From: a virus
IMG/VR virus record: IMGVR_UViG_3300009073_000032
Coordinates: 1 to 26,430 of that record
Length of the DNA stretch: 26,430 nt
Direction: 5' to 3' (one strand)
Position 1 is the first letter of the stretch, and each line of letters begins with the position of its first letter. The translations under genes and the position numbers were made by a program. The notes beneath the pieces were generated by a model. That model was given only the letters and a program-made list of their open reading frames with translations. It searched no databases and was not told where the DNA came from. Of this stretch, positions 1 through 26,430 are shown in pieces.

Positions 1-123
1 TCTGGAAAAATTTGGAGGCAGTGGAGGCACTTTAAAACTCCATCTGGAGCGTTCTGAAGTTAAAAATTTAAACAACTTTGACTGTTCGGAAATTTTTGAC
101 TTTTTTTACTGTGTTTTATTTTT
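1..123. repeat. Left terminal inverted repeat (123 bp)
   Basis: Bases 1-123 are the exact reverse complement of bases 26308-26430, checked base by base; identity stops at position 124 (G against T). The outer 60 bases are richer in G+C than the inner half. They contain a tandem GGAGGCAGT/GGAGGCACT and the dyad CTCCA-TC-TGGAG (38-49). The inner half is A/T-rich, with TTTGACT at 77-83 and again at 95-101. The last eight bases overlap the stop codon of the endolysin gene, so this copy lies just downstream of the lysis genes. Whether it is a true genome end, one arm of an invertible segment or an artefact cannot be told from the sequence. Confidence 0.97.
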
Positions 124-577
124 GTATAGGCGGCTGAAAAAGATATACTTTAGGATTATGCTCTTCAAAAATTACATCTAAATGAACCCAAGATACTTTG
201 TCTTCAAGTCTTATCTTAAATGGGAATAAATGTTGGTTTTGAATTATCCAGTCTCGAACCTCTTTAGCGTTCATTCCTTTAACATCAAAATCAACAGCTT
301 TGCCAAATAAATGAGCAGAAACATAAAGAAGATTTTTGTAGACTTTGTTTTTTACCATTTGCTGCGCAATAGTTCTAAGTCCTCTTTGTTGTTTTCTGCC
401 GTAGTTTACTTTTATTTCTCTACCTAAATTTTCTCTAATTATTAAAAGCGCATACAATAGCCTAAAATCAAGAAAACGCCAAGCTCTTTCTTTAAACTTT
501 CGGTAAGTTCTACCGCCAACTAATTCTTTGATTTTAAAATACTTTTTGATTTGCTTCCTTACTTCTGATTCTGTCAT
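116..577 (-). CDS. Endolysin, peptidase M15 family (D-Ala-D-Ala carboxypeptidase/L,D-endopeptidase type)
   Basis: The 153-residue protein carries the zinc-peptidase signature of family M15: SAHLFGKAVDF at residues 87-97 (the SxHxxGxAxD motif, ligands His89 and Asp96) and WVHLD at 130-134 (WxHxD, third ligand His132). The upstream stretch NYGRKQQRGLR (58-68) resembles the segment before the first ligand in phage M15 endolysins. It should cut peptide crosslinks of peptidoglycan at the end of infection. No signal peptide or membrane segment is visible, so it would need a holin to reach the wall. It is the last gene of the minus-strand series, 62 bases after the holin candidate, and its start lies 14 bases past a terminator-like hairpin, which may limit or delay its expression. 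Its stop codon falls inside the left terminal repeat. The family call is firm; the exact bond cut is not known. Confidence 0.9.
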   Translation of the reverse strand: MTESEVRKQIKKYFKIKELVGGRTYRKFKERAWRFLDFRLLYALLIIRENLGREIKVNYGRKQQRGLRTIAQQMVKNKVYKNLLYVSAHLFGKAVDFDVKGMNAKEVRDWIIQNQHLFPFKIRLEDKVSWVHLDVIFEEHNPKVYLFQPPIQK

Positions 578-591
578 ATTCTTTATAAAAG

Positions 592-618
592 AAAAGCCTC
601 TAATATATAGAGGCTTTT
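592..618 (-). terminator. Terminator-like hairpin before the endolysin gene
   Basis: An 11-bp perfect stem (AAAAGCCTCTA paired with TAGAGGCTTTT, loop of five A/T bases) is followed on the minus strand by a T-rich stretch (CTTTT). On the plus strand it is also followed by a T-rich run, so it could work in both directions. It lies between the holin candidate (stop at 640) and the endolysin start (577), leaving only 14 bases before the ATG and no room for a separate promoter. Confidence 0.7.
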
Positions 619-639
619 ATTGATTTTTGTTTTATTTTT

Positions 640-975
640 TTATTCGCTTTTAATCTGCTTTTGAGCTGAATATAAGAACGATGAAGCTAAACCTGCTAAT
701 AGCTGCATAATCCAACTAACGTTTTCCCCTTCAAGAAAGGTTGTTAAAAAAGTTATTAAAGCTGATATTGCAAATACAACTATCATAGCGACGTTTCCTT
801 TTATTGAGGAGGAAAACGTTTTAACAAGTGTCGTAGCCAGCCACACAATTGCAGGCATTAAATAAGCCACTATGCTTGCTGGACTTGAAAAATCAACTAC
901 TTCCCCTGTTTGAGCCATTACTAAGAATGGAGCAATAAATAAAATCACAAATAATAATACATTTTTAATCTTCAT
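640..975 (-). CDS. Holin candidate: small membrane protein with signal peptide
   Basis: The 111-residue protein begins with a typical signal peptide, MKIKNVLLFVILFIAPFLVMAQ (cleavage probably after AQ, residue 22; quoted here as M1-A21 plus Q22). Two or three further hydrophobic segments follow at about residues 32-52, 62-82 and 87-105. A short lysine-rich tail ends the protein (QKQIKSE). Size, membrane segments and position directly before the M15 endolysin suggest a holin, a role inferred from context because I recognise no named holin family. The N-terminal signal peptide is unusual for a holin and might instead be a retained first membrane segment or a signal-arrest-release element. It ends 62 bases before the endolysin start, with a terminator-like hairpin between them. 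Confidence 0.6.
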   Translation of the reverse strand: MKIKNVLLFVILFIAPFLVMAQTGEVVDFSSPASIVAYLMPAIVWLATTLVKTFSSSIKGNVAMIVVFAISALITFLTTFLEGENVSWIMQLLAGLASSFLYSAQKQIKSE

Positions 976-977
976 AA

Positions 978-1003
978 TAAATATAGTTTTTGCCTATTTA
1001 GGC
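978..1003 (-). promoter_or_regulatory. Weak promoter-like box with dyad upstream of the holin candidate
   Basis: On the minus strand TATATTTA (985 to 978) differs by one base from the Bacteroidota -7 consensus TAnnTTTG. Immediately upstream is the perfect dyad GCCTA-AA-TAGGC (992-1003), where a regulator could bind. A transcript would begin almost at the start codon. This is suggestive only: the last, usually strong G of the box is missing. Confidence 0.25.
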
Positions 1004-1026
1004 GGTTAAAATTAATTTTCAAAAAA

Positions 1027-1275
1027 TTAAGCGATTTTATTGAGCGCCTTTCGAACAGTTACCTTGATTTCTTCAAGTTCAGCTTTTTCTCCCTCAGTCA
1101 AGCCTCCTTTTTCAAGCTGTCTCCTTGTCTTTCTAAAGTACTTGTATATCAGCCTGAAATTCTTTCGAAGATGTGCTTTTTCACTTGTATCAAAAATTGT
1201 GGCTATTGCTACTCCTAAAGCGGAGACATCGCTTACAGCGTTTAAAATGCCTTTTATGTCTGTGTTCTTACTCAT
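1027..1275 (-). CDS. Hypothetical small helical phage protein
   Basis: This 82-residue protein matches no family I know. It has a mildly hydrophobic segment near residues 12-28 (NAVSDVSALGVAIATIF). A strongly basic, predicted helical middle follows, with many Lys and Arg (about 33-57), then an acidic patch (GEKAELEEIK) and a basic C-terminus. It starts three bases after the stop of the upstream coiled-coil membrane protein and lies 51 bases before the holin candidate, so all are probably on one lysis-region transcript. A role in lysis timing or as an accessory membrane-associated protein is possible from position alone. The opposite strand is also open here (1040-1282) but looks like a shadow. 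The gene is likely real because spacing to both neighbours is tight and it has an ATG. Confidence 0.6.
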   Translation of the reverse strand: MSKNTDIKGILNAVSDVSALGVAIATIFDTSEKAHLRKNFRLIYKYFRKTRRQLEKGGLTEGEKAELEEIKVTVRKALNKIA

Positions 1276-1278
1276 GTT

Positions 1279-1647
1279 TTAATTTATAATGCTATTACTT
1301 TCTATTTTATCAACGATTCTTATTATTTCAGGCTTGTCAGGAGCTAGTTCTTTGATGATTCCGGTAATAGCTGTTAATTTTATGGTTAAAACATTTAAGT
1401 TGCTTCTTAAAGCATTTTCGCTTTTTCTAGCGGCTTCTAGCTTTAGACTAACATCTTCAAGCTTTTTACTTAAATTAGCTATTTTCATATCTTTACCACT
1501 AGAATTGCTTTCAGCAAGTTTGATTTCTGTGTTTGATTTATGCCTGTCAGTTAGGTATTTTGTTAACAATGTTAATCCACTAACAACAGCTCCCACAACA
1601 ACAACCCATATAGGTTCAACACCGTCCGAACCAACGGAATTTAACAT
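1279..1647 (-). CDS. Membrane-anchored coiled-coil protein in the lysis region
   Basis: With the ATG at 1647 the protein has 122 residues. It starts with a short acidic head (MLNSVGSDGVEPIW), then one transmembrane segment (about 13-31, WVVVVGAVVSGLTLLTKYL), then a basic stop (DRHK) and a long heptad-like helix (about 40-105). By the positive-inside rule the N-terminus would face the periplasm and the coiled coil the cytoplasm. That topology is opposite to an inner-membrane spanin and closer to small BhlA-like holin or anti-holin proteins; the comparison is an inference. An upstream in-frame ATG at 1716 would add 23 residues but would lie wholly inside the end of the PAS gene, so 1647, seventeen bases past that gene's stop, is preferred. 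It is followed after three bases by the 82-residue ORF. Confidence 0.6.
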   Translation of the reverse strand: MLNSVGSDGVEPIWVVVVGAVVSGLTLLTKYLTDRHKSNTEIKLAESNSSGKDMKIANLSKKLEDVSLKLEAARKSENALRSNLNVLTIKLTAITGIIKELAPDKPEIIRIVDKIESNSIIN

Positions 1648-1663
1648 TTTGAAATATTTCACA

Positions 1664-2104
1664 TTAAAAATTGATTTTATGAGTTCCGAACAAATAAAGG
1701 GGCTTACCAGCTTCATTTTTCATCAACGAACCTGAACAAAGCAAATTAATTACCTCGCCATTTTTAAGATTGTATTTTACAACCTGATAATAAGAACCTT
1801 CCCCTTTTATGTTTTCTTCTAAATTTTTAAAAGCAATTTCTTTGTCTTTCGGGTCAATAATTTTTTGCCAAGACTCAGCGAGATTAGGGAAATCTTTTTT
1901 GCTTTTGAAACCTAAACTTTTTCTAACTTTAGGGCTATAATATTCCATTTCAGGGTTTGATAAATCCCAAATCCAAAAGCCTCCATCGGTATTTTCGCCT
2001 ACTTCTTTTAAAAGCAATTCACCTAATTCTATTACATCATTAAATTCGCCTAAAAAGATTAAAGAAGCTAATTTTAATACTGTATTTTCATGTACTTTAT
2101 TCAA
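1664..2104 (-). CDS. Standalone PAS-domain protein (PAS_3-like)
   Basis: The 146-residue protein is a single PAS fold with a short helical lead. Residues 42-146 follow the PAS_3 pattern closely: GFWIWDLSNPEMEYYSP, then SLGF, a DFPNLAESWQKIIDPKD segment matching the usual W..lihPdD, YYQVVKYNLKNGE, and the final GKPLYLFGTHKI strand. In cells such domains sense small molecules, redox state or light and are normally joined to kinases, cyclases or DNA-binding domains. Here no output domain is present. The lead helix (1-38) might mediate dimerisation or partner binding. The start codon appears to be TTG at 2104: the same frame has a stop at 2111-2113 and no ATG before Met53. The gene lies between the fibre genes and the lysis genes. 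The fold call is strong by eye; the function is unknown. Confidence 0.8.
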   Translation of the reverse strand: MNKVHENTVLKLASLIFLGEFNDVIELGELLLKEVGENTDGGFWIWDLSNPEMEYYSPKVRKSLGFKSKKDFPNLAESWQKIIDPKDKEIAFKNLEENIKGEGSYYQVVKYNLKNGEVINLLCSGSLMKNEAGKPLYLFGTHKINF

Positions 2105-2116
2105 TTTTTTTTATTT

Positions 2117-3685
2117 TTAATTGTTCAACATTAACGCTTGTATAGCGGTGTTTCCTGATTGATTTATAATATTACTTAATCCAGACCCAAACTGATAAGC
2201 TCCTAGCGTATAAGGCATGGTTCTAACATTACCATCGAAATCATAGCCTGCCTCCGAATGTATAATCGAAACATCTTGTCCAATGTCTAAAGCGGCATTG
2301 GTAAGATGAAAATCAGTTGTGCTTACAAAAGAAGGTGTTAAGGTCGTTATGTCGCTTTCTACGTAAGAATTCAATGAACTCGCTGCAAAAGAGCCGCTCA
2401 CATTTACATTTTCAAACTCGGTATTTACATTCAACACTGCTCCGCTTTCATCTAGAAAATTGGTAGTGTTGTAAACTATGCAGTTAACGAACCTGTTCGA
2501 ACTGTTGTCCATTCTCGTTCTTGCAAATGTATCGTTGGTATGAAAAGTACCACTAAGTATTTTATTGTTGTCTGCCGAATCCAAAGCCTGAAATTCATCG
2601 GTCATAAAAATAAATTCTGAATTTTTAACTATCGGGTTTATTATAACATTGTTATTTCCGCCCCCCAACTCAGCAGTAGTATTTCCAGGGCCAACTAGAC
2701 CATCGTCCCAATCCGCAAAACTTATCGCGCAATAGACATCATCAAAAACAATATTTATAAATTCGTTGTCATGAGCTCCGTTAGCTATTCTAAGTCGAGC
2801 AGCTACGTCCGAATCGAACGACCAACTACCATTAACTTCAATGTTTTTCCAAGTGTTACCTTGAACAGCCACAAAAGAAGCTTCTATATTCACGTCGTTA
2901 GCAACGCAATCTTCAAATAGATTGCCTGTGCCAGACGATTTAATGACTAAACCATGACGACCGGCATTGGTTTCATTGTATCTATTAACCGTACAATTTC
3001 TAACAATGTTATTATCTCCGCCTGAAATTAAAATGTAGTAATCAGTTCCGTTGTCGCCGACCCCTAAATCGGAATAAACGTGGCAATCATCGAAAACGCC
3101 TGAATCTCCTTGTATCGCAATAGCCTCCGCTCCTGCATTGACTACGTAACATCTTGTAAGACTTGGGTTATTGCCCGACGTTCGAATGCCTAAGCCTTCA
3201 TAGGGGGCAGAGCCTATTTGTGTTCCTAATGTATGACACAGAATGTTATCCGCTACAAAGTTAGCTCCGCTTGCATTTACCCCGAAATTGATATTTGTAA
3301 ATTGAAAATTCTTTAAGGTAACATTTGCGGCTGAAATAGTCATAGCCGTACCAGAACTAAGGGAAGTACCTGTAATAGTCGGCATATCAAGATTGTCTAA
3401 AGCATCGGGGTAGCTATAAGCAGTAATAATGTCGCCTACTACATTTTTGTATCCTTCCCAAGTTGCGCCGCTTTCAAAACTGCTCATTTGAACAATGCCG
3501 TAATTGCCAGCTTTTACGTAAATAGTTTCGTTGGTAGTATCAGCATTGTTGGCTTCTGAAAGTGTCCAAGCGTTCGCTTCATTGCTTCCGTCATGTGCTC
3601 CTGCCCCGGTAACTGTTACGTGCTTTTGAGAACGTGCCGCAAATAAGCTAAATACAAGTAATAATAATGCAATTTTAGTTCTCAT
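2117..3685 (-). CDS. Exported right-handed parallel beta-helix protein (fibre/depolymerase candidate)
   Basis: The 522-residue protein has a signal peptide, MRTKIALLLLVFSLFAARSQ (cleavage probably after Gln20). From about residue 100 to 440 it shows parallel beta-helix rungs, with recurring NN..xNCxV units (NNIVRNCTV, GNLFEDCVA, DNEFINIVF, NNVIINPIV, SNRFVNCIV). The C-terminal segment ALDIGQD...YDFDGNVRTMPYTLGAYQF is the D.DG.R...iGAYe ending common in Bacteroidota secreted beta-helix proteins. Such folds bind or cleave polysaccharides; I see no certain catalytic triad. Position after the tail-tip genes suggests a receptor-binding or capsule-degrading tail protein, but the signal peptide implies export. 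The start overlaps the previous stop as TAATG (3685), so the two are translationally coupled. It is richer in GC than the head genes. Confidence 0.8.
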   Translation of the reverse strand: MRTKIALLLLVFSLFAARSQKHVTVTGAGAHDGSNEANAWTLSEANNADTTNETIYVKAGNYGIVQMSSFESGATWEGYKNVVGDIITAYSYPDALDNLDMPTITGTSLSSGTAMTISAANVTLKNFQFTNINFGVNASGANFVADNILCHTLGTQIGSAPYEGLGIRTSGNNPSLTRCYVVNAGAEAIAIQGDSGVFDDCHVYSDLGVGDNGTDYYILISGGDNNIVRNCTVNRYNETNAGRHGLVIKSSGTGNLFEDCVANDVNIEASFVAVQGNTWKNIEVNGSWSFDSDVAARLRIANGAHDNEFINIVFDDVYCAISFADWDDGLVGPGNTTAELGGGNNNVIINPIVKNSEFIFMTDEFQALDSADNNKILSGTFHTNDTFARTRMDNSSNRFVNCIVYNTTNFLDESGAVLNVNTEFENVNVSGSFAASSLNSYVESDITTLTPSFVSTTDFHLTNAALDIGQDVSIIHSEAGYDFDGNVRTMPYTLGAYQFGSGLSNIINQSGNTAIQALMLNN

Positions 3686-6600
3686 TAATCTAGTGTTATT
3701 GAAATGTTATCAACAATTACCCACTCTTCATCTGTGTCAATGACCGTATCGTAATTATTTGGATTAGCGGTTGGATGCAATATTGCTAGTCTAAATCCAG
3801 TTTCTGCCGCCGCTATTGTGACTGTTACTTCATTCCATCCAGGCGTATCACTAATTGCTATTACATTTGGACTAGTGGTAGCTAAAGCGGTGTTATTTCC
3901 TTCTTCAGTTATACGTATGCTGCCATCTGTACCAGCCACTTGATTTACCCAGAAAGTTAAAGTTTTAGTTCCTGTTGTAGGAAGTCCTGTAATACTAATA
4001 TAATGTCTTGCAAAAGCAGCGTTATCCGAGTTCATAGATAAGAAACCGTAAGTACCTTCCTGTGCGTAAGTAGTCTGTACGGTACTGGCAATATTATCAG
4101 TCCATCCGCCAAAGCTATTCGCTTCGTCTGTTCCTTGACTACCGAAGTTGCCAGTTGGATAATATTCTGCGGTAGCAGGCGAGAACCACTCAAAGCCATC
4201 CCCACTAACTTTAAACACTCCTTCAGTATCTTCAATTACAGAGACAGAACCCCAATCAGTTAACCTAAAACAACTCTCATTAGTTCTACCTTTACCTTTC
4301 ATAGTCGCCGTTCCTTCACACAACTCAAAAATTGGAGATGAACCATCTATTGTAAAGAAGTAGTTTTCGTCTATCTGACCGGTTCTAATATTATCTAGTG
4401 TTCTTTGAACCGTACCTGAGCGAATTGTATTATATACACGATAGCCTGTTCCTGTAACTTGGTTGGTATAAGTCAACGCTCCACTGCCTGTTATATCTAA
4501 AACAGAATGAAAACCCGTTGAAACTGAGCCTGAACCACCAGCATCGAAATCATTTTCATTTGTTACCGTAACACCAGTGGCAATGTTTGGGGATTTGGAA
4601 ATGGCTCCATTGGCGCTTGTGAAACCATGACTAAGTTCAGCTATTGTGCCCGTTCCAACTAAAGTCAATAGATTAGTGGTAGCCGCCTTGATGTGATTTC
4701 CTACTGCTGACATTGTGCCAATAGTTGCGTTGTCTGTGCTAAATCTTAGAGGATTAGTACCGTCAATTACATTGTTATCATATTTGAAAACGTCTACGTT
4801 AGTTACCGCTTGATTACTACCTCCCAACCCATAATCGGAATAATTTTCAATTCTGTTGTTAGAAAAATCCCAAACTTTCGAGTCACCTGTAATGCTGGCT
4901 AAAACACCTACACTTTTTGAATTGTTCGAGTAGTTGTGTTTAAAAGTTACGTTAGTACCTCTAATCGAATAACCGAAGCCATCACCCGTGGTAGGTTTAA
5001 CCGTATTGGTTGACGAGGTATTTTTTATGGTTAGATTATCAGCTAATTGTATTTGATAACCACCTTGCGTAATCGAAGGGTCTAAGTTGTAATTGTTACC
5101 GTGAAAATTATCAATAACACCTTTAATGTTGTAGCCATAGAAAAAAGCATCATCCACATCGTCGATTTGAACACCTGCTATGTCTATGTTCGCTTGCTGG
5201 CCTATTCCATTTATAAACACACCATATTCGTTCATAGCTCCCGAATTGGAGATACCTCCGTTTATTTTAATTTGCCTCATATAGACATCTTCAAAATCTT
5301 TCACCAATACGTGCGCTGCCGCATCGGTTTCAATGCCTCTAAAGTTCTTAGAAGTGTAATTTACAAGTCGAAAAGTTTGACCGTCATCTGTTCCCAGTTC
5401 ATGGGATTTTGCGCCATCTTTCCCATAGCCGTCTAGGTGTAGATTTTCCCAGTCGATATGCTCAGTACCTTCTCCTTTTATAGGGGTGTTCTTATTCTCG
5501 TTAAGCCACATACCTCTAACTATATGACGCTCGTCATTTTTAGATAAGAAGAAAGGGGTTTGCCCTAATGTGTTTCCTGTGTTTTGAGTTGTCAATCCCA
5601 TACCAGTAGCTGTATTATTTTCTAAATACACCTTATCCGTTGTGTTTTCGTTCCATGTCACATAATTTCTTACGTTGGTTGACACGGTGTTTTCTTGTGT
5701 AAAACTTTCCATTCCCACAGTCTTAACGACCGCTTTAGGCACTTCATCAAAATTAGAATTGTAAATCCTCCCCGAAATAGAACCGTCTGCATAAAAGAAA
5801 TATGACTCATTATCAAAGCTATTCAAAGCGTCATTACTCGCTTTATCGCCTGCAAAATTCATGCTTATATTCCAATGATCAACACTAGATAGGTCAATGC
5901 CAAAAGTTGCTGTATTCAGGGGAAAGGTAGAATGAAGTCTAATTTCTGCGTTCGGGTTTTCTTTAACAAAAAGTGCAAGCCTAGCTGTTAGAGTTAAAGG
6001 GTTTGCGATGTAATAAACACCATCAGGCCAGCAATGTGCCAATCCTGTTGTATTCAACCATGCTGATAAGTCCGCATCATCTGGCAAAGTATCCTGACCA
6101 TTAGCTTCTAGCATTGTGCAATTAGACGCGCTCGCTTGAATGACTTCCCGTACGCTTAAATTGTCAAAATCTACTTCCCAATCCAGAGCGGTCAAGCCGC
6201 CATGCCCCAACCTAAATAACTGCACATGGTCGCTGTCCGAAGTTGCAACGAACTCAAACGTTCTTTTGGTAGTTCCCGAAGCTGCCGTAATCGTTAAGCT
6301 GTTACCAACAGGGCTACTACTAGTGTCGTCTGTATCTCTAATCGTATATTGACGACCGACGGATTCCAGACTTTCTATTTCGTCAAATTCGATTCTATAT
6401 GTTTTGCCCGTCTCGTAAGTAACAGCTTGTCGCAAATAAGAGAAGTTGCTAGCAGCTGGCACTTCTAAAGTTCCTACTCCATTCGCTATAACTGCCCGAC
6501 TTTTCGAATAATTAGTATCGGCATCAAAAGTTCCGTTAATTACTAAATTCGAACCTAGATTTTCGGCAGAAGGAAGGTCTAACAAAGTCTGCCCTTGCAA

Positions 6601-6726
6601 ACCTATCTGTCCGTTTTCTACAACTAATTTAGGGGTGTTATTTGATCCCGGTATATGCGCTCCGTTTTCTTGAGCAAAAGCTAGAAAGGAAAATAAAATA
6701 AGTACTAATAATGTTATCTTTTTCAT
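3685..6726 (-). CDS. Exported large beta-helix protein with two carbohydrate-binding-like modules
   Basis: Starting at the ATG at 6726 the protein has 1013 residues and begins with the signal peptide MKKITLLVLILFSFLAFAQ. An in-frame ATG at 6753 would add nine residues but would overlap the SGNH gene. Residues about 59-195 look like a CBM4/9-type jelly roll: NLVINGTFDAD, YLRQAVTYETGKTYRIEF, ending VDFDNLSVREV. A long middle (about 210-780) has beta-helix rungs such as NVDVFKYDNNVIDGTNPLRF and FKHNYSNNSKSVGVLAS. The last 160 residues form another jelly-roll-like module (FGGWTDN ... LTFWVNQVAG ... VIVDNISITLD). This suits a host-surface polysaccharide-binding or -degrading protein, perhaps a tail fibre. 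The start is one base after the SGNH stop, and its stop overlaps the next gene's start. Enzymatic activity is not provable by eye. Confidence 0.8.
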   Translation of the reverse strand: MKKITLLVLILFSFLAFAQENGAHIPGSNNTPKLVVENGQIGLQGQTLLDLPSAENLGSNLVINGTFDADTNYSKSRAVIANGVGTLEVPAASNFSYLRQAVTYETGKTYRIEFDEIESLESVGRQYTIRDTDDTSSSPVGNSLTITAASGTTKRTFEFVATSDSDHVQLFRLGHGGLTALDWEVDFDNLSVREVIQASASNCTMLEANGQDTLPDDADLSAWLNTTGLAHCWPDGVYYIANPLTLTARLALFVKENPNAEIRLHSTFPLNTATFGIDLSSVDHWNISMNFAGDKASNDALNSFDNESYFFYADGSISGRIYNSNFDEVPKAVVKTVGMESFTQENTVSTNVRNYVTWNENTTDKVYLENNTATGMGLTTQNTGNTLGQTPFFLSKNDERHIVRGMWLNENKNTPIKGEGTEHIDWENLHLDGYGKDGAKSHELGTDDGQTFRLVNYTSKNFRGIETDAAAHVLVKDFEDVYMRQIKINGGISNSGAMNEYGVFINGIGQQANIDIAGVQIDDVDDAFFYGYNIKGVIDNFHGNNYNLDPSITQGGYQIQLADNLTIKNTSSTNTVKPTTGDGFGYSIRGTNVTFKHNYSNNSKSVGVLASITGDSKVWDFSNNRIENYSDYGLGGSNQAVTNVDVFKYDNNVIDGTNPLRFSTDNATIGTMSAVGNHIKAATTNLLTLVGTGTIAELSHGFTSANGAISKSPNIATGVTVTNENDFDAGGSGSVSTGFHSVLDITGSGALTYTNQVTGTGYRVYNTIRSGTVQRTLDNIRTGQIDENYFFTIDGSSPIFELCEGTATMKGKGRTNESCFRLTDWGSVSVIEDTEGVFKVSGDGFEWFSPATAEYYPTGNFGSQGTDEANSFGGWTDNIASTVQTTYAQEGTYGFLSMNSDNAAFARHYISITGLPTTGTKTLTFWVNQVAGTDGSIRITEEGNNTALATTSPNVIAISDTPGWNEVTVTIAAAETGFRLAILHPTANPNNYDTVIDTDEEWVIVDNISITLD

Positions 6727-6727
6727 T

Positions 6728-8263: not shown

Positions 8264-8284
8264 TTGATCGCAATTTAGATTCAA

Positions 8285-8337: not shown

Positions 8338-8355
8338 CGTATAGAAAGTCATTTA

Positions 8356-8838: not shown

Positions 8839-8844
8839 AATAAT

Positions 8845-10935: not shown

Positions 10936-10944
10936 TTGTATTCT

Positions 10945-17402: not shown

Positions 17403-17406
17403 TTTA

Positions 17407-17456: not shown

Positions 17457-17495
17457 CATGCATCCTAGTACAGCGGATGAACACAGAACAAAAAT

Positions 17496-18431: not shown

Positions 18432-18621
18432 TTTTAATTTTTTGCTTGTTAATTAAATCTTGATAAACGCTTTGATTATCAGTTTCGAAATTACTTCCGA
18501 TTTCATATTTTTTAGGGTTTTTAAACCCTACTGTAAAAGCACTTATAACTTCACCTTTAAAGATTTTTTTTTCTTTAGGTTCAGCAGCTTTTACAACTAC
18601 TTTATCTTCATTTTTTGCCAT
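18421..18621 (-). CDS. Small conserved-type phage protein before the tail tube gene
   Basis: This 66-residue protein has a charged start (MAKNEDKVVVKAAEPKEKKI) followed by a short beta-rich core (FKGEVISAFTVGFKNPKKYE, then IGSNFETDNQ) and a helical end (SVYQDLINKQKIK). No family name comes to mind. The core resembles small virion proteins with the pattern v.s.ft.Gf.np..y..Gs.y....s.....L, which would fit a small capsid or connector accessory, but this is only an impression. It begins two bases past the stop of the 201-residue gene and overlaps the tail tube gene by 11 bases, so it is likely expressed with them. Confidence 0.6.
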   Translation of the reverse strand: MAKNEDKVVVKAAEPKEKKIFKGEVISAFTVGFKNPKKYEIGSNFETDNQSVYQDLINKQKIKNGN

Positions 18622-18623
18622 TT

Positions 18624-19229: not shown

Positions 19230-19903
19230 TAAAATCCAAATCTGTTTATGTGTCTTATGTCTTTGAAATGTACATTTTTGTAAAAATCAGTATATGCTTT
19301 ATTCATGTCTTTTATGAAATCGTATAAGCTAACTTCTTTGTTACCTTTGTAATAATCTAAACCTAATAACTCATGCTTATAAATAACTTTTTCGGATTTA
19401 CATTTGCCTTGAACTATGTCTACATATTTATTCCACGCGTCAACAACTTTTAAGGTCGGGGCTACTACTTGAGCGTTTTTAACCTTTTCTTTAATTTGTC
19501 CAACAGTTGTGTTAGTTACATGTTGTCTTCTTTCGTGTCTACAGTATGCGTAATAAGCTAAAAAACTTCTATTATATTTTTCAGCTGTAATAGGGGTTTT
19601 AAATCTAATTCCCCTCCAAGCCTTAAGCTTATTAGTTCTCGCATCTAAATAGGAGTGACCATTTAAAAGCCACCCCCATTTTTCATGCGCCTCATCTTTT
19701 AATAATGTGGGCCTATCTAAATTCAATTGACTAGCAAACTCATTATAAAAAATGAAACCAAATATATCAATAAAGCACTCTTCTTCATAACCACTTATTA
19801 TTTCAGAAAAATTATTTGTAGTCTCAAGTAGTTCTTCCGTTATAGAAGGCTTAGCTTCAGGTATATAAATATCTCCTTTATAATATGTGGTATTTGTTAT
19901 CAT
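19229..19903 (-). CDS. Head-tail connector-type protein (DUF6712-like)
   Basis: The 224-residue protein has the look of a family common in Bacteroidota phages, placed after the capsid gene. An N-terminal helical part (NNFSEIISGYEEECFIDIFG) is followed by EKWGWLLNG, KAWRGIRF and the segment LAYYAYCRHERRQHVTNTTV, then PTLKVVDAWNKYVDIV. The Tyr/Trp-rich core and VTNTTVGQ..EKVKNA pattern are what I associate with DUF6712-like proteins, thought to act as head-tail adaptors. It begins 16 bases after the 65-residue ORF, and its stop overlaps the next start (TAATG). A 12-base sequence ATTTATAAAGCA precedes its ATG and also occurs before the upstream small gene. The role is inferred from position and resemblance. 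Confidence 0.6.
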   Translation of the reverse strand: MITNTTYYKGDIYIPEAKPSITEELLETTNNFSEIISGYEEECFIDIFGFIFYNEFASQLNLDRPTLLKDEAHEKWGWLLNGHSYLDARTNKLKAWRGIRFKTPITAEKYNRSFLAYYAYCRHERRQHVTNTTVGQIKEKVKNAQVVAPTLKVVDAWNKYVDIVQGKCKSEKVIYKHELLGLDYYKGNKEVSLYDFIKDMNKAYTDFYKNVHFKDIRHINRFGF

Positions 19904-19918
19904 GCTTTATAAATCAGT

Positions 19919-20116
19919 CTATTCTTTTACCACTTTTTTAGGCTCATAAACTTTGTGGGTTTTAATGATTTTACCTACTTTAATTTTACTAACTAAAGCG
20001 TTAGCGGTACTTTTGTGATATGTTTCAACATCACCTACTTTTTTAGATCCATGAGATTTAGTAAACTCAACGTCTACATAACCAGTTGGAACTTGTTTGC
20101 CTTTTTCTTCAGCCAT
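19919..20116 (-). CDS. Small protein next to the capsid gene
   Basis: The 65-residue protein has a compact pattern: a beta strand (GYVDVEFTKSHGSKKVGDVE), a helix (KSTANALVSKIKVGKI) and a basic tail (VYEPKKVVKE). Small proteins of this kind, with the outline v.f...h....G....v....A..L.....v, often follow major capsid genes in phages; their role is generally unknown. No membrane or signal segment is present. It lies 40 bases after the capsid stop and 16 bases before the connector-like gene. The upstream gap holds only A/T-rich sequence and the 12-base motif ATTTATAAAGCA (20124-20135 on the plus strand). Function is not assigned. Confidence 0.6.
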   Translation of the reverse strand: MAEEKGKQVPTGYVDVEFTKSHGSKKVGDVETYHKSTANALVSKIKVGKIIKTHKVYEPKKVVKE

Positions 20117-20155
20117 AATATATTGCTTTATAAATTAAAAAATTATTTTTTTCTA

Positions 20156-21397
20156 TTAAGCAGCTTCAATTGCAGCTTCAATAGTAGCTAAATCATCATA
20201 AACAAACGCGCTAAGATCAAGATTCTTAACATACTGAAAGAATCTACTCTCTCCTAACATTGTAAATTTGTTTGTAATGAATTGGTCGTTAATCCATCCG
20301 ATTCTAATTGAAAAAGGAATATAATTAACTAAATTGTATTTTTTCATATCCCCAACAAATACTTTGCCATTTGGAATTTTAATCCAAGGGCGAATAGTAA
20401 CTCCTCCAATTGAAACAGAATTAAAAAGACTAGCTTGTGGATATAATGGCAAACCATCGCCATCTTTAGCAGATTGAAACTCTAAGAAAAAATCTAAGGG
20501 GCTAATCATAACAACATTTGCTTTTTTAGGCATTTCGTCTGCAAAAGCTTGCGTTGTATAAATGTCTGTAATAACAGCGTTAATTTTGTCCATGAAATTA
20601 CTTTTTCCATTTTCAAATTTATCAGCCATTGCTCCAACTACAAATGTTCTAGCTAAGGTTGTTACTCCAGAAGGAATTTCACCTGCACCTGAACCAAAGT
20701 ACAATCCATTAACTTTAAACAAGTCGTGTTTTTGTCTTAAGTATGTGCGAGCTATAGAAGATAATCGCGTGTAATCAGTTACAGCTTCTTCAGTTAAAAT
20801 TTCATAAGCTGCAATTTTCTTGGGGCGAGGGTGTCTTGTTTCCCATTTAAAATCAATTTGAGGCTTTTCAGCTCCTTCAGCTACAAAATCATAATCACCG
20901 TCTTTTGGAATCATTTCAGTATAAGTCGCAAAAGGTTTTCCTGTTCTGGAAACGTTCATGAGGCTAATAAGCCCATTATCGTTTCTAAGGTCAAAATCAC
21001 CTAATCTAGCAACAGCTACATTTGGTACGGCATCAATTTGATTTCCATTGCCTGTGGTAATGTCTTCAGGCGCTTTGTCAACATCTTCATAGGGATTAAA
21101 AACAATTTCACCAGAACCTTTGTGGTAAATATTTTTAATTTCGCTTTGATTTTCTTTAAGAAAAGATGTAAATTTTTCTTGAATAGTAACAATACGTTTT
21201 TCTTTCATTTCTTCAATAAAATCTTCAAGAGCTTGGCCTTGTTTTTCAATTGCAGAAATAGCCTCTTTCAACTCATTTTTTGTAGCCCCTTCATCCTGAA
21301 GTTTTTTAAGCTCATCTTGAGTTTCTTTAAACTTTTTGTCTAAGGCGTCAGCAATTTTTTTATCTTGCTCTTGCTGCCTTTTTTCTTCTTCCGTCAT
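20156..21397 (-). CDS. Major capsid protein, HK97 fold
   Basis: The 413-residue protein has the layout of HK97-type capsid proteins that carry their own scaffold. Residues 1-75 form a charged coiled coil (EEEKRQQEQDKKIADALDKK onward), the delta domain that is usually removed by the prohead protease. The shell domain follows, with recognisable blocks: FATYTEMIPKDGDYDFVAEG (about 155-175), KPQIDFKWETRHPRPKKIAA (E-loop and spine region), ILTEEAVTDY, and the C-terminal GVTIRPWIKIPNGKVFVGDM part of the A domain. It lies 91 bases after the protease gene. That gap carries two copies of a 17-base repeat able to fold into hairpins, which may act on capsid expression. The HK97 protease next to it supports processing at the end of the coiled coil. 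Confidence 0.93.
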   Translation of the reverse strand: MTEEEKRQQEQDKKIADALDKKFKETQDELKKLQDEGATKNELKEAISAIEKQGQALEDFIEEMKEKRIVTIQEKFTSFLKENQSEIKNIYHKGSGEIVFNPYEDVDKAPEDITTGNGNQIDAVPNVAVARLGDFDLRNDNGLISLMNVSRTGKPFATYTEMIPKDGDYDFVAEGAEKPQIDFKWETRHPRPKKIAAYEILTEEAVTDYTRLSSIARTYLRQKHDLFKVNGLYFGSGAGEIPSGVTTLARTFVVGAMADKFENGKSNFMDKINAVITDIYTTQAFADEMPKKANVVMISPLDFFLEFQSAKDGDGLPLYPQASLFNSVSIGGVTIRPWIKIPNGKVFVGDMKKYNLVNYIPFSIRIGWINDQFITNKFTMLGESRFFQYVKNLDLSAFVYDDLATIEAAIEAA

Positions 21398-21442
21398 TTT
21401 TAACGATTTAAAAAAATTATTATTAGTTGTTATTTTGTTTGC

Positions 21443-21492
21443 TATAGTGCTTTCGCGGCTATAAACTTAAAGCTTAGTGCTTTCGCGGCTAA
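21443..21492 (-). repeat. 17-bp direct repeat pair with hairpin potential upstream of capsid gene
   Basis: TAGCCGCGAAAGCACTA occurs twice on the minus strand, at 21491-21475 and 21461-21445, with a 30-base period. The first copy contains the stop codon (TAG) of the protease gene. Each copy can form a small hairpin with a GAAA loop, a GC/GC inner stem and a TAG/CTA outer stem. The flanking pair is T-A in one copy and A-T in the other, so pairing is kept while the bases differ. This fits a structured RNA element better than a chance duplication, but two copies are little evidence. Confidence 0.6.
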
Positions 21493-22262
21493 TTAATCTC
21501 CAGCCAACTCTTTACTGGAGAAACTCTTTTATTTTTTATTGTTTTATTTTCAGATATTGATATTGTAGGTGTTATTTGATTGCTTCCTAAAACCACAGCT
21601 GAACCTTCAATTGCTTTAGCTTCTGTTACAGCCCAAAAATATCTTCTTTTTTCTAAATCAACTTTGTTTACTACAAATTTAGAATATTTTTGCCAAGCTT
21701 CATATTTAGCTCCATAATCTTCATCATTAATGCATGTTATCATTTTAACGTAACGCATTCCAACACTGTGATTATCAACCCTCCCTTCTTTATATTCATT
21801 AAACATAAAAGCGTTTCTTTCGCGCTTAACTATAGATTCAAAAACTAAAGCTTGAGTTTTACCTTCAACATCATATCCAAGTTCTTTCCAGTTATATTCT
21901 TTAGCGTATGCTTTTAAGCTATCGCCATCTGATATAACTTTATCAAAAGCCATTTTATGTTCTTGTAAATGCTTTATTCTTTTGTTTTCAGATAAAGATT
22001 TATCCCATAATCCTTTTATGTGAACATCTCCATGTGAATCTAAAAGATTAGTTGTATTTATTACAGCTTTAACTTTCAACTCATTTGAATCAGCTAAATT
22101 AGATTTAGATGCTATTCCAAAATCTTTTAAAGTTTGAATACCTCCAGTAAAACTATCAGCATATTTTAATGCAGATTTTTTAACGTAAAAAATATCACTT
22201 TCTTTTTCTACAAGAAAATCAAATAATTCTTTATCAGTTTTAAATTCAGGTATCTTAAACAT
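21489..22262 (-). CDS. Prohead maturation protease, HK97 family (S78/U35)
   Basis: The 257-residue protein has the HK97-type prohead protease pattern. LKVKAVINTTNLLDSHGDVH starts at residue 62, and HLQEHK (98-103) contains the candidate catalytic His. DNHSVGMRY (163-171) contains the candidate nucleophile Ser166 in the usual xSVGM/F context. It should cleave the scaffold-like N-terminus of the capsid protein inside the prohead and then itself. The gene lies between portal (39 bases away) and capsid, the classic order. About 60 residues precede the core, somewhat more than in minimal members. Its stop codon is embedded in the first copy of a 17-base repeat. The family call rests on motifs and order. 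Confidence 0.88.
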   Translation of the reverse strand: MFKIPEFKTDKELFDFLVEKESDIFYVKKSALKYADSFTGGIQTLKDFGIASKSNLADSNELKVKAVINTTNLLDSHGDVHIKGLWDKSLSENKRIKHLQEHKMAFDKVISDGDSLKAYAKEYNWKELGYDVEGKTQALVFESIVKRERNAFMFNEYKEGRVDNHSVGMRYVKMITCINDEDYGAKYEAWQKYSKFVVNKVDLEKRRYFWAVTEAKAIEGSAVVLGSNQITPTISISENKTIKNKRVSPVKSWLEIN

Positions 22263-22301
22263 ATTTATTTTTTTACAATTATATGATCTTTAACTTTAAT
22301 A

Positions 22302-23600
22302 TTACGCAATTCTAATTCCTTCTTCAATTGCTCTTTTTCTTTCTGACTCAATTTTTGAGTTGCCATTGTTTTCTTGCTGTCCATTATTTGAAGTATTTTG
22401 AATTAATTCTCCCAATTTAGTTCGCTTGTCAATATCAACCATTTCCAATGCTAATTCTTGTGGAATACCAACCATTAACAAAGCTTTTAAAGCTGTAGCT
22501 TGTTTAAATACAACGTCATACTTTTCTAACAATATAAATTGCATTATAGGCATGTGCGTGTAATCGCCTATAATTTTGTCATCACCTTTATTTTTATTAA
22601 ATACCGCGCAAGCGCTATTTAATGAAGGTTGTATCTCATTTTGTATATAAGATACCATTGACTCTTTAAAATTATTATATGTTGTTTTTTTAGCCTCTAA
22701 AGATAAAATGTCTTTAGGTATGTGAAGTGCACTGTAAATTATGTTGCCGTCTACTTTTACACTTTCGTCTAAGCCTAAATCTCTTAGCGCAATATGTAAT
22801 GATTTGTAAGTTAAATCAGATTTTGTGACAACACCTCTTTTGCGATTAAATGCTAAACCTATTTTATTATTAAATAAATTTTCAACTTGCTCTTTTTCTT
22901 CAGGTGATAATGGGAAACCTTCTTTTTTACCAGAAATTAATTCTTTGCCATTTGTTTTAAGAATTATATTTTTAGCTATAAGGCTGTCATGCGTATTTAT
23001 AAGTGTTTGTCTTAATCCATCTAATCTACTTTTAGCTGTAAATGGATTTTTATTAAGCATGTTTGGTAAGTCGTAAAAGAAAAGTAAATCTTTTATTCTA
23101 AACTTAGAATTTTCACCATTTTTATCATAAATAATAAATTCATTTAAAGCTTTTTCACTAGTAGACCTAAAAGTTCTTTTATTAAAATTTTCTGGCCATT
23201 TAATCAAATCTTTATCTAAAACAAACATTGACTTTGCATCGTCAAAACCTAATATTTTTTTTTGAGCTACAACAGCAACTCCTTGAGCTATCATAACAAA
23301 CATTAAGGTTTCTAAAAAATCCTCTTTAGTTTGATATTGATTTGGATTATCAATTAAATCTAAAAATTTATGATCTAATATTTTATTTTTACTATGTTTT
23401 TGTATTACTGAAAAATTTGCTTGAGAGAAGATTTTAGATACAAATAATATTGCAGGCGTAAGTATTGGGTGGTTTTGAGCCATCTGCAAATTAGAAGCTC
23501 CTTCATACCATTTGTGTATACTTGTTAAATCATAAAAACTGTCTCCTGACTCATTTCTCATCCAGGAAGGCCAGCTCAATTTAGGTAGACTTAATCTCAT
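22302..23600 (-). CDS. Portal protein, HK97-type
   Basis: The 432-residue protein fits the Phage_portal (HK97-like) family. It opens with NHPILTPAILFVSKIFSQAN (about 43-62), the helix before the wing, followed by LIDNPNQYQTKEDFLETLMF (about 82-101), the well-known ll..PN...t..dF..t... block. The stem/clip region has FPLSPEEKEQVENLF, and the crown-side part has ALHIPKDILSLEAKKTTYNN, equal to the usual vP..llg.....sy.n. It forms the ring through which DNA is packaged. Its start is five bases past the TACATTTG box, so the transcript from that promoter would be nearly leaderless. It is not coupled to the large terminase gene, which ends 73 bases upstream. Confidence 0.92.
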   Translation of the reverse strand: MRLSLPKLSWPSWMRNESGDSFYDLTSIHKWYEGASNLQMAQNHPILTPAILFVSKIFSQANFSVIQKHSKNKILDHKFLDLIDNPNQYQTKEDFLETLMFVMIAQGVAVVAQKKILGFDDAKSMFVLDKDLIKWPENFNKRTFRSTSEKALNEFIIYDKNGENSKFRIKDLLFFYDLPNMLNKNPFTAKSRLDGLRQTLINTHDSLIAKNIILKTNGKELISGKKEGFPLSPEEKEQVENLFNNKIGLAFNRKRGVVTKSDLTYKSLHIALRDLGLDESVKVDGNIIYSALHIPKDILSLEAKKTTYNNFKESMVSYIQNEIQPSLNSACAVFNKNKGDDKIIGDYTHMPIMQFILLEKYDVVFKQATALKALLMVGIPQELALEMVDIDKRTKLGELIQNTSNNGQQENNGNSKIESERKRAIEEGIRIA

Positions 23601-23605
23601 AAAAA

Positions 23606-23657
23606 CAAATGTACCTTGAAAATAAACAAAAAAAAATTTTTTTAATAGATTTTTTTT
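23606..23657 (-). promoter_or_regulatory. Promoter for head and tail genes
   Basis: On the minus strand TACATTTG (23613 to 23606) fits TAnnTTTG. Exactly 17 bases upstream lies an element of eight A, TC, TATT, seven A and a T-run (23657 down to about 23631). It is nearly identical to the one before the SGNH gene. The box is only five bases from the portal ATG. A TTTG at 23630-23627 is too close (13 bases) for the usual -33 spacing. Confidence 0.6.
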
Positions 23658-23673
23658 GTTTATTCACGCATAA

Positions 23674-24975
23674 TCATATTTTTATACCAAGATAATTTAC
23701 AAGATAAGTTATTATATATCTTAAAGCATCCATATAGTGATCGTCTTTTTTAACTGGGTTATCAGTTGGCTTTTCATATCTATCTAATTCCCAAGAATAG
23801 TTATCGTATTCTTTTTTAAACGCAGCTAAATGCTTATCTAAACCGCTAACAAAATATATCGTAAAACCTTGTACTACTGTTATTCCAGGCGAAACAGAAT
23901 TATTTCCCTTTTTAGCTTCAACAGCTAAATAACCTATATCACGCATTATATTAACATATTCTTTTTTAGCTGGGTCACAAGCAACTAAACTAGTATGCTT
24001 AATCATTGTTGGTATATCTTTTTGTAATATTGAAGATATAGATTGATCTATTGAAGATAGTGGTTTATAAAACCTAGGGAAAACATAAAAACCTCCGTCT
24101 CCATCGTATTTTACTTCTAAATTAGCTGTAGGAGATGACGTTCCAAAGTCTTGCCCAAAATAACTTGTGTAATTTAAACTGTCAAACTCTTCTGGAGATA
24201 TTTTTATCCAGTTTCTATATATACGATTTGGTTTTTCAGAACCTATTCCTAACCCATATACTAACCACATATAAGTATCTGCAGTCTTACGCTTAACATT
24301 AAGTTTATTTATAGGAGGTTGATTACTTCTAGATATTGGATAACCTTTGTATAAAACTTCAGCACCAGAAACTTCATAACTACCAGTTTCCCAAGGCTCA
24401 TAAGAATTTAATTGTTCAACTATATTTTCTGGACAAAAAGCATTATCTTTAAATGAAGAGTGTATAAAAACAGTTCTAGGATCATTTTTATACCCTTCTA
24501 ACCAAAAGTCTTTAGATGGATTATAATCTGCAAATACAGTTAAAGCTGTTCTTTGTGTTATTTGTAAATAAACTGGTTTTGAAAATTCAGTAATTTCATT
24601 AAAATAACTTATATCTTGAGCTCCACCCAAAACTTTACCTACGCTATCAGCTCCTTCAAACAATATTTCAGAACCAGTTGGCAAATATGTAAATCTTCCA
24701 AGCTGTTTGTTTTCTTTAAACTTAAAAAATAACGTTTGATCGGTCATTATTATTTTTTTGAAATCTTCCATAACTGTAGCTCTACATGTTACTTTAGTAT
24801 CTCTCCAAACAGTTATTCTAAGCTTTTTTTTTCTTATCATCTCCATCATTAGGAGCTGAAGTATAGAATAAGTTTTACTTGAGCGAGATCCGCCCATACT
24901 AACTATTTGTCTATACTTTCCTGGATAATAAACTTTTGCTGTTTTATTAAACGTATTAGTTACTTTTATATCCAT
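23674..24975 (-). CDS. terL: Terminase large subunit, PBSX type
   Basis: The 433-residue protein has both terminase domains. The ATPase carries a Walker A, GGSRSSKTYS at 28-37 (Lys34), and a Walker B-like DISYFNEI at 121-128 with Glu127 as catalytic acid; Asn in place of the Asp is usual in this family. The nuclease domain has its three acidic positions in GQDFGTSS (Asp276), ACDPAKK (Asp334) and HYMDALRY (Asp415). It pumps DNA into the prohead and cuts it at the end of packaging. An extra segment at about 197-231 (TGSYEVSGAEVLYKGYPI onward) looks like a family-specific loop rather than an intein. It overlaps the membrane-protein gene by 10 bases, and the next gene (portal) has its own promoter. 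Confidence 0.95.
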   Translation of the reverse strand: MDIKVTNTFNKTAKVYYPGKYRQIVSMGGSRSSKTYSILQLLMMEMIRKKKLRITVWRDTKVTCRATVMEDFKKIIMTDQTLFFKFKENKQLGRFTYLPTGSEILFEGADSVGKVLGGAQDISYFNEITEFSKPVYLQITQRTALTVFADYNPSKDFWLEGYKNDPRTVFIHSSFKDNAFCPENIVEQLNSYEPWETGSYEVSGAEVLYKGYPISRSNQPPINKLNVKRKTADTYMWLVYGLGIGSEKPNRIYRNWIKISPEEFDSLNYTSYFGQDFGTSSPTANLEVKYDGDGGFYVFPRFYKPLSSIDQSISSILQKDIPTMIKHTSLVACDPAKKEYVNIMRDIGYLAVEAKKGNNSVSPGITVVQGFTIYFVSGLDKHLAAFKKEYDNYSWELDRYEKPTDNPVKKDDHYMDALRYIITYLVNYLGIKI

Positions 24976-25328
24976 TCAAATATCAAATTATATATTAACC
25001 AAAACATCATTATTATTCCAAATAAAGAAAAAATTAATAATATTAAAACTACGTATAAAGAAGGTTTTTTAACATCAAATCTCAAATAATTATAATTATA
25101 AAGTAAATCCCATTTGTGACCTTGAATTTTATTAATTATATAATTAACTTCAAGTTCAACACTATTTAGATTCCAGCCTTTAAGCTTTAACATTGCCCAA
25201 ATAAGTTGAGGTCTACTAAATTTAGGTTCATCAGGAAGTAATAAAGGTGGTTTTTCATTTGTTCCAACTATTAATTCTACCAACTCTTTTTTACTTAATG
25301 AAGATATGTATTTATTGTAATTTTTCAT
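24966..25328 (-). CDS. Small membrane protein inside the packaging operon
   Basis: The 120-residue protein starts with a soluble part of about 85 residues. Within it EPKFSRPQLIWAMLKLKGWN could be a short helix-turn-helix-like or protein-contact segment. It ends with a very hydrophobic stretch of about 30 residues (VVLILLIFSLFGIIMMFWLI onward), long enough for one segment or a tight hairpin, and finishes with NLIFEWI. No signal peptide is present. It overlaps the VRR-NUC gene by 17 bases and the large terminase by 10, so it is firmly part of this operon. I recognise no family. Membrane proteins are unusual here; superinfection exclusion or tethering packaging to the membrane are guesses. The tight overlaps and usual codon pattern support a real gene. 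Confidence 0.6.
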   Translation of the reverse strand: MKNYNKYISSLSKKELVELIVGTNEKPPLLLPDEPKFSRPQLIWAMLKLKGWNLNSVELEVNYIINKIQGHKWDLLYNYNYLRFDVKKPSLYVVLILLIFSLFGIIMMFWLIYNLIFEWI

Positions 25329-25680
25329 CTATTAAATGGTTTGCTATTATTTGGTTTATTAATATTTTAAATGATTTTAAATCTCTAATTACATAGTAAC
25401 AAAATCCTTGAGATTTAATGTGTTTTTCCCATTCTATTTGTTTTTCACTTTGACAGCCGTAAATATTTTTCATTTCAATACAATATGTTTTACCTTTATA
25501 CATAAAAAGCATATCAGCTACACCGGAATAAACACCTGTCATTTTAAATATCTTACCTTGCAAAGCTGATCTAGCTCCACCGTTTGGAACAGCAAATAAA
25601 CAACCTCTTAATTTTTTGTATGTGTTATTAAACCAAACGTAACATTCACTTTGTATTTGATCTTCAGTTTTACGACTCAT
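25312..25680 (-). CDS. VRR-NUC domain nuclease
   Basis: From the ATG at 25680 the protein has 122 residues; an in-frame ATG at 25695 would add five residues and a larger overlap with the upstream gene. It is a minimal VRR-NUC (PD-(D/E)XK superfamily) nuclease: EDQIQSECYVWF at 6-17, VPNGGARS at 31-38, KMTGVYSGVADMLF at 46-59 (metal ligand Asp56), then CIEMK at 67-71 (Glu69, Lys71) and QSEKQIEW at 77-84. Members act as structure-specific endonucleases, such as Holliday-junction resolvases, and small versions are common in phages. Placed between the terminase subunits, it may clear branched DNA before or during packaging. All expected catalytic residues are present. Confidence 0.9.
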   Translation of the reverse strand: MSRKTEDQIQSECYVWFNNTYKKLRGCLFAVPNGGARSALQGKIFKMTGVYSGVADMLFMYKGKTYCIEMKNIYGCQSEKQIEWEKHIKSQGFCYYVIRDLKSFKILINQIIANHLIDEKLQ

Positions 25681-26077
25681 CTTCTTGTATTTCATCTATT
25701 AATATAACCTCTTTTTCACCATCAGCATTAACTATTACAGTTTGAATATTAATAGTTGTATCTTGCTGCTCTAATTCACCTCCTTCCATTCTAGTTACTT
25801 TAGGTTTAAAATGCTCTAGCAACTTAAGATAATTTCTAGCAAAATCTTTATCTCCCATTTGAGATATAACATTTATAAATCTTTCAGTTAAACTTCCGTC
25901 AACCATTTTTTTTAAAAGGTCCCACTGAGTTTCACCTTCTTCAATTCTCTCTTTTATAATTGCTATAACTTTTGGATTATTAACTACAGGCAATTCAGAC
26001 TTTTCATCAAGCATAGCTTCCATTTTTTCTTTCATGGAATTTTTTATAGATTCTTCAAAAACTCCTCCTTCAGCCAT
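25670..26077 (-). CDS. terS: Putative terminase small subunit
   Basis: The 135-residue protein lies two genes upstream of the large terminase, where the small subunit is expected. Its C-terminal part DFARNYLKLLEHFKPKVTRM (about 78-97) matches the ...f...y.kllEyv.PKl.R... block typical of Bacteroidota phage small terminases, followed by a beta-rich tail (TINIQTVIVNADGEKEVILI). The N-terminal helix-turn-helix expected to bind pac or cos DNA is not clear, although the helices around KVIAIIKERIEEGETQWDLL could do so. It starts one base past the stop of the 58-residue gene and overlaps the VRR-NUC gene by 11 bases. The call rests on the C-terminal motif and position. Confidence 0.7.
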   Translation of the reverse strand: MAEGGVFEESIKNSMKEKMEAMLDEKSELPVVNNPKVIAIIKERIEEGETQWDLLKKMVDGSLTERFINVISQMGDKDFARNYLKLLEHFKPKVTRMEGGELEQQDTTINIQTVIVNADGEKEVILIDEIQEDES

Positions 26078-26078
26078 T

Positions 26079-26255
26079 TTATTCTTTTTTACTTGATTCT
26101 AATATATTATGCATCTCTTTGCTGACTTTAGTGTAATCTAACATCATCTGTTCAACAGTCTCACTCATTTCCACTTCGTTGCGAATACATTCCATTTTAA
26201 AAGATGTTTTTATATCTTTATCAATGTTCAAAGTTGTAGCTATTTTTTCACTCAT
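26079..26255 (-). CDS. Ribbon-helix-helix-like small DNA-binding protein
   Basis: The 58-residue protein reads MSEKIATTLNIDKDIKTSFK then MECIRNEVEMSETVEQMMLD and YTKVSKEMHNILESSKKE. The layout matches a ribbon-helix-helix (CopG/ParG/Arc-like) fold: a short strand (5-11, KIATTLN), a first helix (12-26), a turn with MSE (30-32), and a second helix (33-46). Such proteins bind DNA as dimers and often repress their own operon or help DNA partitioning. It is the first gene of the minus-strand series, 23 bases downstream of a TACATTTG promoter box, with the 14-base dyad ATATT-ATGA-AATAT just upstream of that box as a possible operator. It is separated from the small terminase by one base. Fold by eye; target not known. 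Confidence 0.65.
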   Translation of the reverse strand: MSEKIATTLNIDKDIKTSFKMECIRNEVEMSETVEQMMLDYTKVSKEMHNILESSKKE

Positions 26256-26278
26256 TTTATTAAAAATTTTGATATGTG

Positions 26279-26306
26279 CAAATGTACGAAAAATATTTCA
26301 TAATAT
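26279..26306 (-). promoter_or_regulatory. Promoter box and dyad at the head of the operon
   Basis: On the minus strand TACATTTG (26286 to 26279) fits the -7 consensus TAnnTTTG and lies 23 bases before the first gene. Upstream, within the promoter spacer, is the dyad ATATT-ATGA-AATAT (26306-26293), a possible operator. The A-tract/T-tract element seen at the other two promoters is not present; a T-rich run that belongs to the right terminal repeat lies in the -33 region instead. Confidence 0.5.
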
Positions 26307-26307
26307 A

Positions 26308-26430
26308 AAAAATAAAACACAGTAAAAAAAGTCAAAAATTTCCGAACAGTCAAAGTTGTTTAAATTTTTAACTTCAGAACGCTCCAGATGGAGTTTTAAA
26401 GTGCCTCCACTGCCTCCAAATTTTTCCAGA
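26308..26430. repeat. Right terminal inverted repeat (123 bp)
   Basis: This is the exact reverse complement of bases 1-123. Unlike the left copy, which lies past the last gene, this one lies upstream of the first gene, so the two copies bracket the whole minus-strand series in opposite orientations. Its inner edge is 22 bases from the TACATTTG box, so part of the upstream promoter region is inside the repeat. Read on the minus strand from the very end, one frame stays open for 43 codons (it starts LEKFGGSGGTLKLHLERSEV), perhaps by chance. Confidence 0.97.

Follow-up and report, generated by a model that had tools for sequence, protein, structure and literature searches.

The yeast 2-micron plasmid has an inverted repeat between its two unique halves and flips by means of the Flp recombinase. 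In herpes simplex virus 1 (HSV-1), whose capsid is of the tailed-phage-like lineage and whose DNA is packaged by a terminase, genome isomerism involves unique blocks placed between inverted repeats. Inverted repeats also form the termini of phi29-like phages and tectiviruses. Chloroplast genomes have a quadripartite structure, with large and small single-copy regions and two inverted repeats between them, the relative orientation being ambiguous to short reads (PMC7145664), and the tailed halovirus PhiH1 of Halobacterium carries a large invertible L-region flanked by an insertion sequence (PMC6210493). Here we analyse a 26,430-bp stretch of viral DNA (the window), which is the entire public IMG/VR virus record IMGVR_UViG_3300009073_000032, and the 123-bp inverted repeats at its two ends. 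The window very probably represents the late block (L), in full, of a tailed phage with a genome that maps as a circle composed of an early block (E), a repeat (X), L, and a second, inverted copy of X.

Contig ends inside a longer repeat

Positions 1-123 of the window are the exact reverse complement of positions 26308-26430. The match ends at base 124 (g versus t), a few bases further on identity is at background level, and because the second-best inverted pair inside the window spans only 40 nt at 73% identity, chance can be excluded for the 123-bp pair. Perfect terminal repeats and a sharp edge had both been described in an earlier note made by a model from the letters alone (the sequence-only reading), and both are confirmed by this match, the sharpness on the inner side of the repeat, the outer side lying beyond the window. 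Because the window is the entire record, its ends are contig ends. The siphovirus morphogenesis block that the same reading saw bracketed does have its head, tail and lysis genes between the arms, but the arms themselves are where the contig stops.

DNA beyond the right-hand copy is available from a sister contig, IMGVR_UViG_3300027509_000031 (G001; 28,219 bp), which is 100% identical to window positions 3769-26430 (22,662 bp). The repeat is internal there, at 5558-5680, and the 5,557 bp lying outward hold a thymidylate synthase gene truncated where the contig stops, a gene for a DnaQ-like exonuclease, small genes and a long intergenic stretch. G001 holds one copy of the repeat and stops short of the other end of the late block.

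The lengths of the inverted ends point to the assembler. MEGAHIT by default finishes at a k-mer of 141. The final k-mers of published Joint Genome Institute (JGI) runs with MEGAHIT and metaSPAdes are 123 and 127, the former being that of MEGAHIT (PMC6646334). End lengths that fall exactly on such values, in the window and in the relatives described below, therefore indicate contigs that stopped one k-mer into a longer identical repeat, X; as a de Bruijn assembler cannot pass X, L emerges as one contig with both ends one k-mer (123 bp) into the same edge. Read from the inside outward, the arms of the early contig L145 differ, then agree for exactly 123 bp, and then the contig stops, which is the signature of a k-mer stop on a real repeat. 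Three contigs have repeat arms that differ by substitutions and indels. The 123-bp termini of the window are neither genome ends nor the full repeat; they are an assembler stop inside a longer two-copy repeat.

Early and late blocks beside the same repeat

Comparison with related phages, which the sequence-only reading had proposed, located inverted ends at the same late-block border. Searches with the terminase large subunit (TerL) yielded 29 and then 68 loci, and whole late-block contigs carry inverted ends at the same position (117 bp in G002, 121 bp in G011, 127 bp in G019 and 1571 bp in G018), those of G010 spanning about 345 bp at 89% identity. The repeat of G018 is enlarged to take in the nuclease gene. 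Contig starts lie 280-730 bp upstream of the gene for the terminase small subunit (TerS) in 30 of 52 TerS-bearing contigs, a clustering with p about 6e-20 under a uniform null over 5 kb, some of the 52 contigs being the same virus. Several relatives are present in two samples, with one assembly breaking at the border and the other running through it. As a separate observation, the late block is split between the repeat copies in G018 (L051, L052) and G019 (L053, L054), such that TerS and TerL run inward from one copy and the nuclease, portal and capsid genes inward from the other.

Early contigs of 10-15 kb were found through searches with superfamily 3 (SF3; DUF5906) and superfamily 2 (SF2) helicases; E encodes both of these together with an ERF annealase and a YqaJ-type exonuclease. 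Among early-only contigs with the SF3 gene and a length of 10 kb or more, 10/10 have inverted ends, which measure 123 bp (L144, L164, and L145, where an imperfect match reaches 192 bp), 127 bp (L131, L134, L136), 141 bp (L137), 23 bp (L140), 268 bp (L132; 357 bp imperfect) and 2893 bp (L135). L162 has an 87-bp inverted pair formed by the contig start and an internal site. As controls, whole contigs of other phages sharing only a distant SF2 helicase showed inverted ends in 0/34 cases. Inverted repeats of 113 bp (L227; 100%, 1-113 and 4388-4500, from the contig end) and 179 bp (L210; 93%, 14888-15066 and 19068-19246) were noticed in phages with only the SF2 helicase in common, and other phages may thus have a similar plan. 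A side branch (L143, L147-L151, G040-G043) has its SF3 helicase gene about 1-2 kb upstream of TerS, and the breakpoint of most of its contigs lies about 170 bp upstream of that gene, as though the block border had shifted beyond it.

The relation of the two blocks is clearest in G022 (IMGVR_UViG_3300005590_000041; 45,881 bp), where bases 1-119 mirror 13344-13462 and bases 15387-15496 mirror 45772-45881, with early genes in the first mirrored interval, late genes in the second, and about 2.15 kb (X) across the junction. The simplest structure for this contig is X'-E-X-L-X', that is, a circle with X present twice, inverted. Its late block between the repeats is exactly record 3300027790_000065, from another assembly (G024). 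On the early side, the two ends of L164 are each 100% identical, across samples, to the first 123 bases of G015, so both ends of E join the same X edge; about 4.5 kb follow those bases in G015 before the late block begins, X measuring ~4.6 kb in that virus, and base 4526 of G015 is where the late contig from the metagenome of L164 starts. The assembled contigs G020 and L139 also each run through E, X and L without interruption, and G001 has early genes next to L. The pattern of two unique regions that are both bounded by one repeat in inverted orientation is thus seen in late blocks, in early blocks and in G022, with the L164/G015 pair supplying the early side. The explanation in the sequence-only reading that comes closest, namely inverted repeats on either side of a late block and an early block lying outside the window, gains support for its structural part from the G001 extension and from the matching repeat beside E in relatives, the flipping that it allowed for being an expectation considered below.

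Early and late contigs were paired within a metagenome by lineage, and pairing is established in the cases of G022 and of the set formed by L164, G015 and G016. Some separate IMG/VR records are probably the early and the late half of one virus (3300035698_003747 with 3300035698_005097, 3300027752_000243 with 3300027752_000085, and 3300008255_003895 with 3300008255_000568). A contig with inverted ends is taken to be a complete virus genome, whereas in the present phages such ends delimit one half of it, and public catalogues therefore list the early and late halves of single viruses as separate viruses.

Several results weigh against a circle with two inverted copies of X. The search for DNA outside the window's left end found no contig joining the lysis-side end of L to X, and of the window virus itself neither the second copy of X nor the greater part of E has been seen. 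End lengths of 117, 121, 119 and 110 bp match no documented k-mer, the long late contigs G003 and G009 lack inverted ends, and the repeat is absent from the relative G021 (L105-L107), whose 46.4-kb sequence closes through an end overlap of 25 bp with a reading frame open across the joint. A linear E-X-L genome, with inverted partial X copies at its two physical ends (ends within X'), would yield the same contigs, and G022 has exactly such content; we nevertheless consider it unlikely, as it does not by itself explain k-mer-sized end lengths and is at odds with the closure of G021. The perfect, sharp repeat at both contig ends would also suit a linear replicon of 26.4 kb whose real ends are the 123-bp inverted repeats, either protein-primed or with hairpin telomeres; a linear replicon with inverted ends was among the options of the sequence-only reading. 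This is very unlikely: the end lengths group at k-mers of assemblers, contigs of relatives continue across the border, the block yielded neither a terminal protein nor a polymerase, and we reject true ends on the strength of the identical sister contig, which continues 5.5 kb beyond one of them.

The recovery of E and L as distinct contigs from the same metagenomes (3300035698, 3300027752 and 3300008255) might instead suggest a genome in two segments, one early and one late, with inverted ends on each, a highly improbable arrangement that is rejected given the contiguity of E, X and L in G022, G020 and L139 and of early genes with L in G001. Finally, an assembly or amplification artefact, such as a fold-back chimera, could be suspected from the identity of 123 bp with an assembler k-mer and from the CheckV result that only 33.2% of inverted-end contigs are >90% complete. 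The sequence-only reading, which had listed this option, proves right insofar as the length is that of the JGI MEGAHIT k-mer, but not as to the repeat itself: the same borders recur in many independent viruses and several assemblies, the arms have diverged in three, repeats of 1571 and 2893 bp occur, and L164 joins G015 at 100% across samples. A pure artefact is rejected on these grounds and is extremely improbable.

Content and possible role of repeat X

The circle of E, X, L and inverted X is the structure that we retain, and its repeat spans about 1.6 to 4.6 kb in relatives. X comprises an edge facing E, one or a few small genes of no assigned function, a largely non-coding stretch and an edge beside the first late gene. 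Iteron-like direct repeats occur in the non-coding stretch at steps of 10-11 bp, about one helical turn: TTTGCGCTA is found five times in G001 versus 0.15 expected, TGTTACAA forms direct repeats in X of L086 and G022, and AGTTGACA does so in X of G018. X thus has the clustered direct repeats at helical spacing in non-coding DNA by which an iteron origin is recognised. The same terminator-like hairpin stands at both E-side edges in L134, L137 and L164. The X of two viruses contains a convergent pair of paralogous small-protein genes (1580-2005 (+) and 3635-4081 (-) in L034; 401-862 (+) and 3020-3406 (-) in L022), for whose products no family or fold match was found; structure models of X proteins were poor in one case and fair in another, and a structure search with the fair model gave no match.

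Judged by gene position, X of the window virus would measure roughly 4.3 kb (about 1.35-5.68 kb in G001). A four-part genome with a circular map, about 47 kb in all by extrapolation and with about 12 kb estimated for E, is probable; it would hold two inverted copies of a putative origin. We regard X as a candidate duplicated origin because of its iteron-like repeats, the ERF, YqaJ and helicase genes in E, and the finding of no site-specific recombinase (serine or tyrosine) or transposase in the window or among the families listed for G022 and four early contigs; the same set likewise yielded no terminal protein and no protein-primed DNA polymerase. The two inverted origins would be served by the SF3 and SF2 helicases of the phage, and the X copies could be kept alike by homologous or annealing recombination through the E-encoded ERF annealase and YqaJ exonuclease. 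Recombination in X would also flip L relative to E, and a plausible expectation from this anatomy is flipping between two isomers. Because both block edges see the same sequence, a flip would leave the signals inside X unchanged, and the arrangement therefore looks replicative or recombinational and not like a gene switch. Early genes are inverted relative to late genes in G021 as compared with G020 and G022. Such differences among relatives are not counted as demonstrating a flip, since the path of an assembly through an exact repeat is arbitrary and, in the case of G021, also because it no longer has the repeat.

More tentatively, and with considerable doubt, we propose a phage family, probably of Bacteroidota, with two inverted origins at the E/L junctions, existing as an isomer mixture through its own annealing recombination, and with inversion-coupled replication like that of herpesviruses or the 2-micron plasmid. 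If true, a whole uncultured tailed-phage family would share a plan so far tied to plastids, the 2-micron plasmid and herpesviruses, raising the questions of why origins should be retained in inverted copies and of how a genome with this layout enters the capsid.

Late genes, relatives and known systems

The genes of the window lie almost all on the minus strand (Table 1). No DNA polymerase, terminal protein, transposase, recombinase or replication gene was found among them, in agreement with the sequence-only reading, which had noted no terminal protein, protein-primed polymerase, transposase or recombinase. Many relatives have a small protein like that of the first late gene preceding TerS. 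The left repeat copy overlaps the last codons of the endolysin gene, for which a search for relatives found none, and tRNA and Rfam scans of the window returned nothing. A PAS-domain protein (Pfam PAS_3, 6e-11; 1664-2104, minus strand) is encoded among the lysis-side late genes, an odd neighbourhood for a sensor domain.

Table 1. Positions of the repeat copies, the late block and its assigned genes in the 26,430-bp window.
Feature	Position	Strand	Basis
Left copy, late-side edge of repeat X, lysis-gene side	1..123	+	Exact inverse of 26308-26430; one k-mer overlap into X
Endolysin, last late gene	116..577	-	phrog_894
Unique late block L (packaging, head, tail, fibre, lysis)	124..26307	-	Gene content; inverted repeats bound the same block in relatives
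Tail fibre with GDSL hydrolase domain	6728..8287	-	
Tape measure protein	13241..16330	-	
Major capsid protein (MCP)	20156..21397	-	phrog_10; 47% to Arctus_1 MCP
Portal protein	22302..23600	-	
Terminase large subunit (TerL)	23674..24975	-	Pfam Terminase_3 and Terminase_3C
VRR-NUC-like nuclease	25312..25695	-	phrog_824 and endonuclease family; equivalent gene inside repeat in G018
Putative terminase small subunit (TerS)	25670..26077	-	Position before TerL and conservation in relatives; without own family match
First late gene, small ribbon-helix-helix-like protein	26079..26252	-	Weak match to Arc-like and ParG families
Right copy, late-side edge of repeat X, terminase side	26308..26430	-	Outward DNA continues 5,557 bp in sister contig G001

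The late genes are closest to those of flavobacterial siphophages. The closest isolate by MCP (47% over 89%) is the Leeuwenhoekiella phage vB_LaeS_Arctus_1 (PP314354), which has a similar late-gene order; it carries an integrase and has no large inverted repeat, unlike the phage family of the window. Isolate phages gave no near DNA match, only distant TerL, MCP and tail matches; the family's SF3 helicase had no match in 50,697 phage records, and bacterial and archaeal genomes held no close TerL relative. A search of the literature, covering open-access papers, found no tailed bacterial phage with such a plan.

The DNA of the linear phi29-like phages and tectiviruses ends at the inverted repeat, whereas here G001 continues past it. 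The invertible G segment of Mu and C segment of P1 have a serine or tyrosine recombinase adjacent, unlike the present phages as far as the listed families go. PhiH1 is the nearest precedent, although here no transposase is involved and the whole late block is bracketed. The 2-micron plasmid shares the plan of two halves, its site-specific recombinase having no counterpart among the families listed here. As in herpesviruses, unique blocks are flanked by inverted repeats, a terminase serves packaging, and recombination between repeats is expected to flip blocks; in contrast to them, there is one two-copy repeat on a circular map and isomers are expected only, the likeness considered being one of plan. 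The chloroplast genome has the same quadripartite plan, which is drawn here in a phage of about 47 kb with a repeat of 1.6-4.6 kb.
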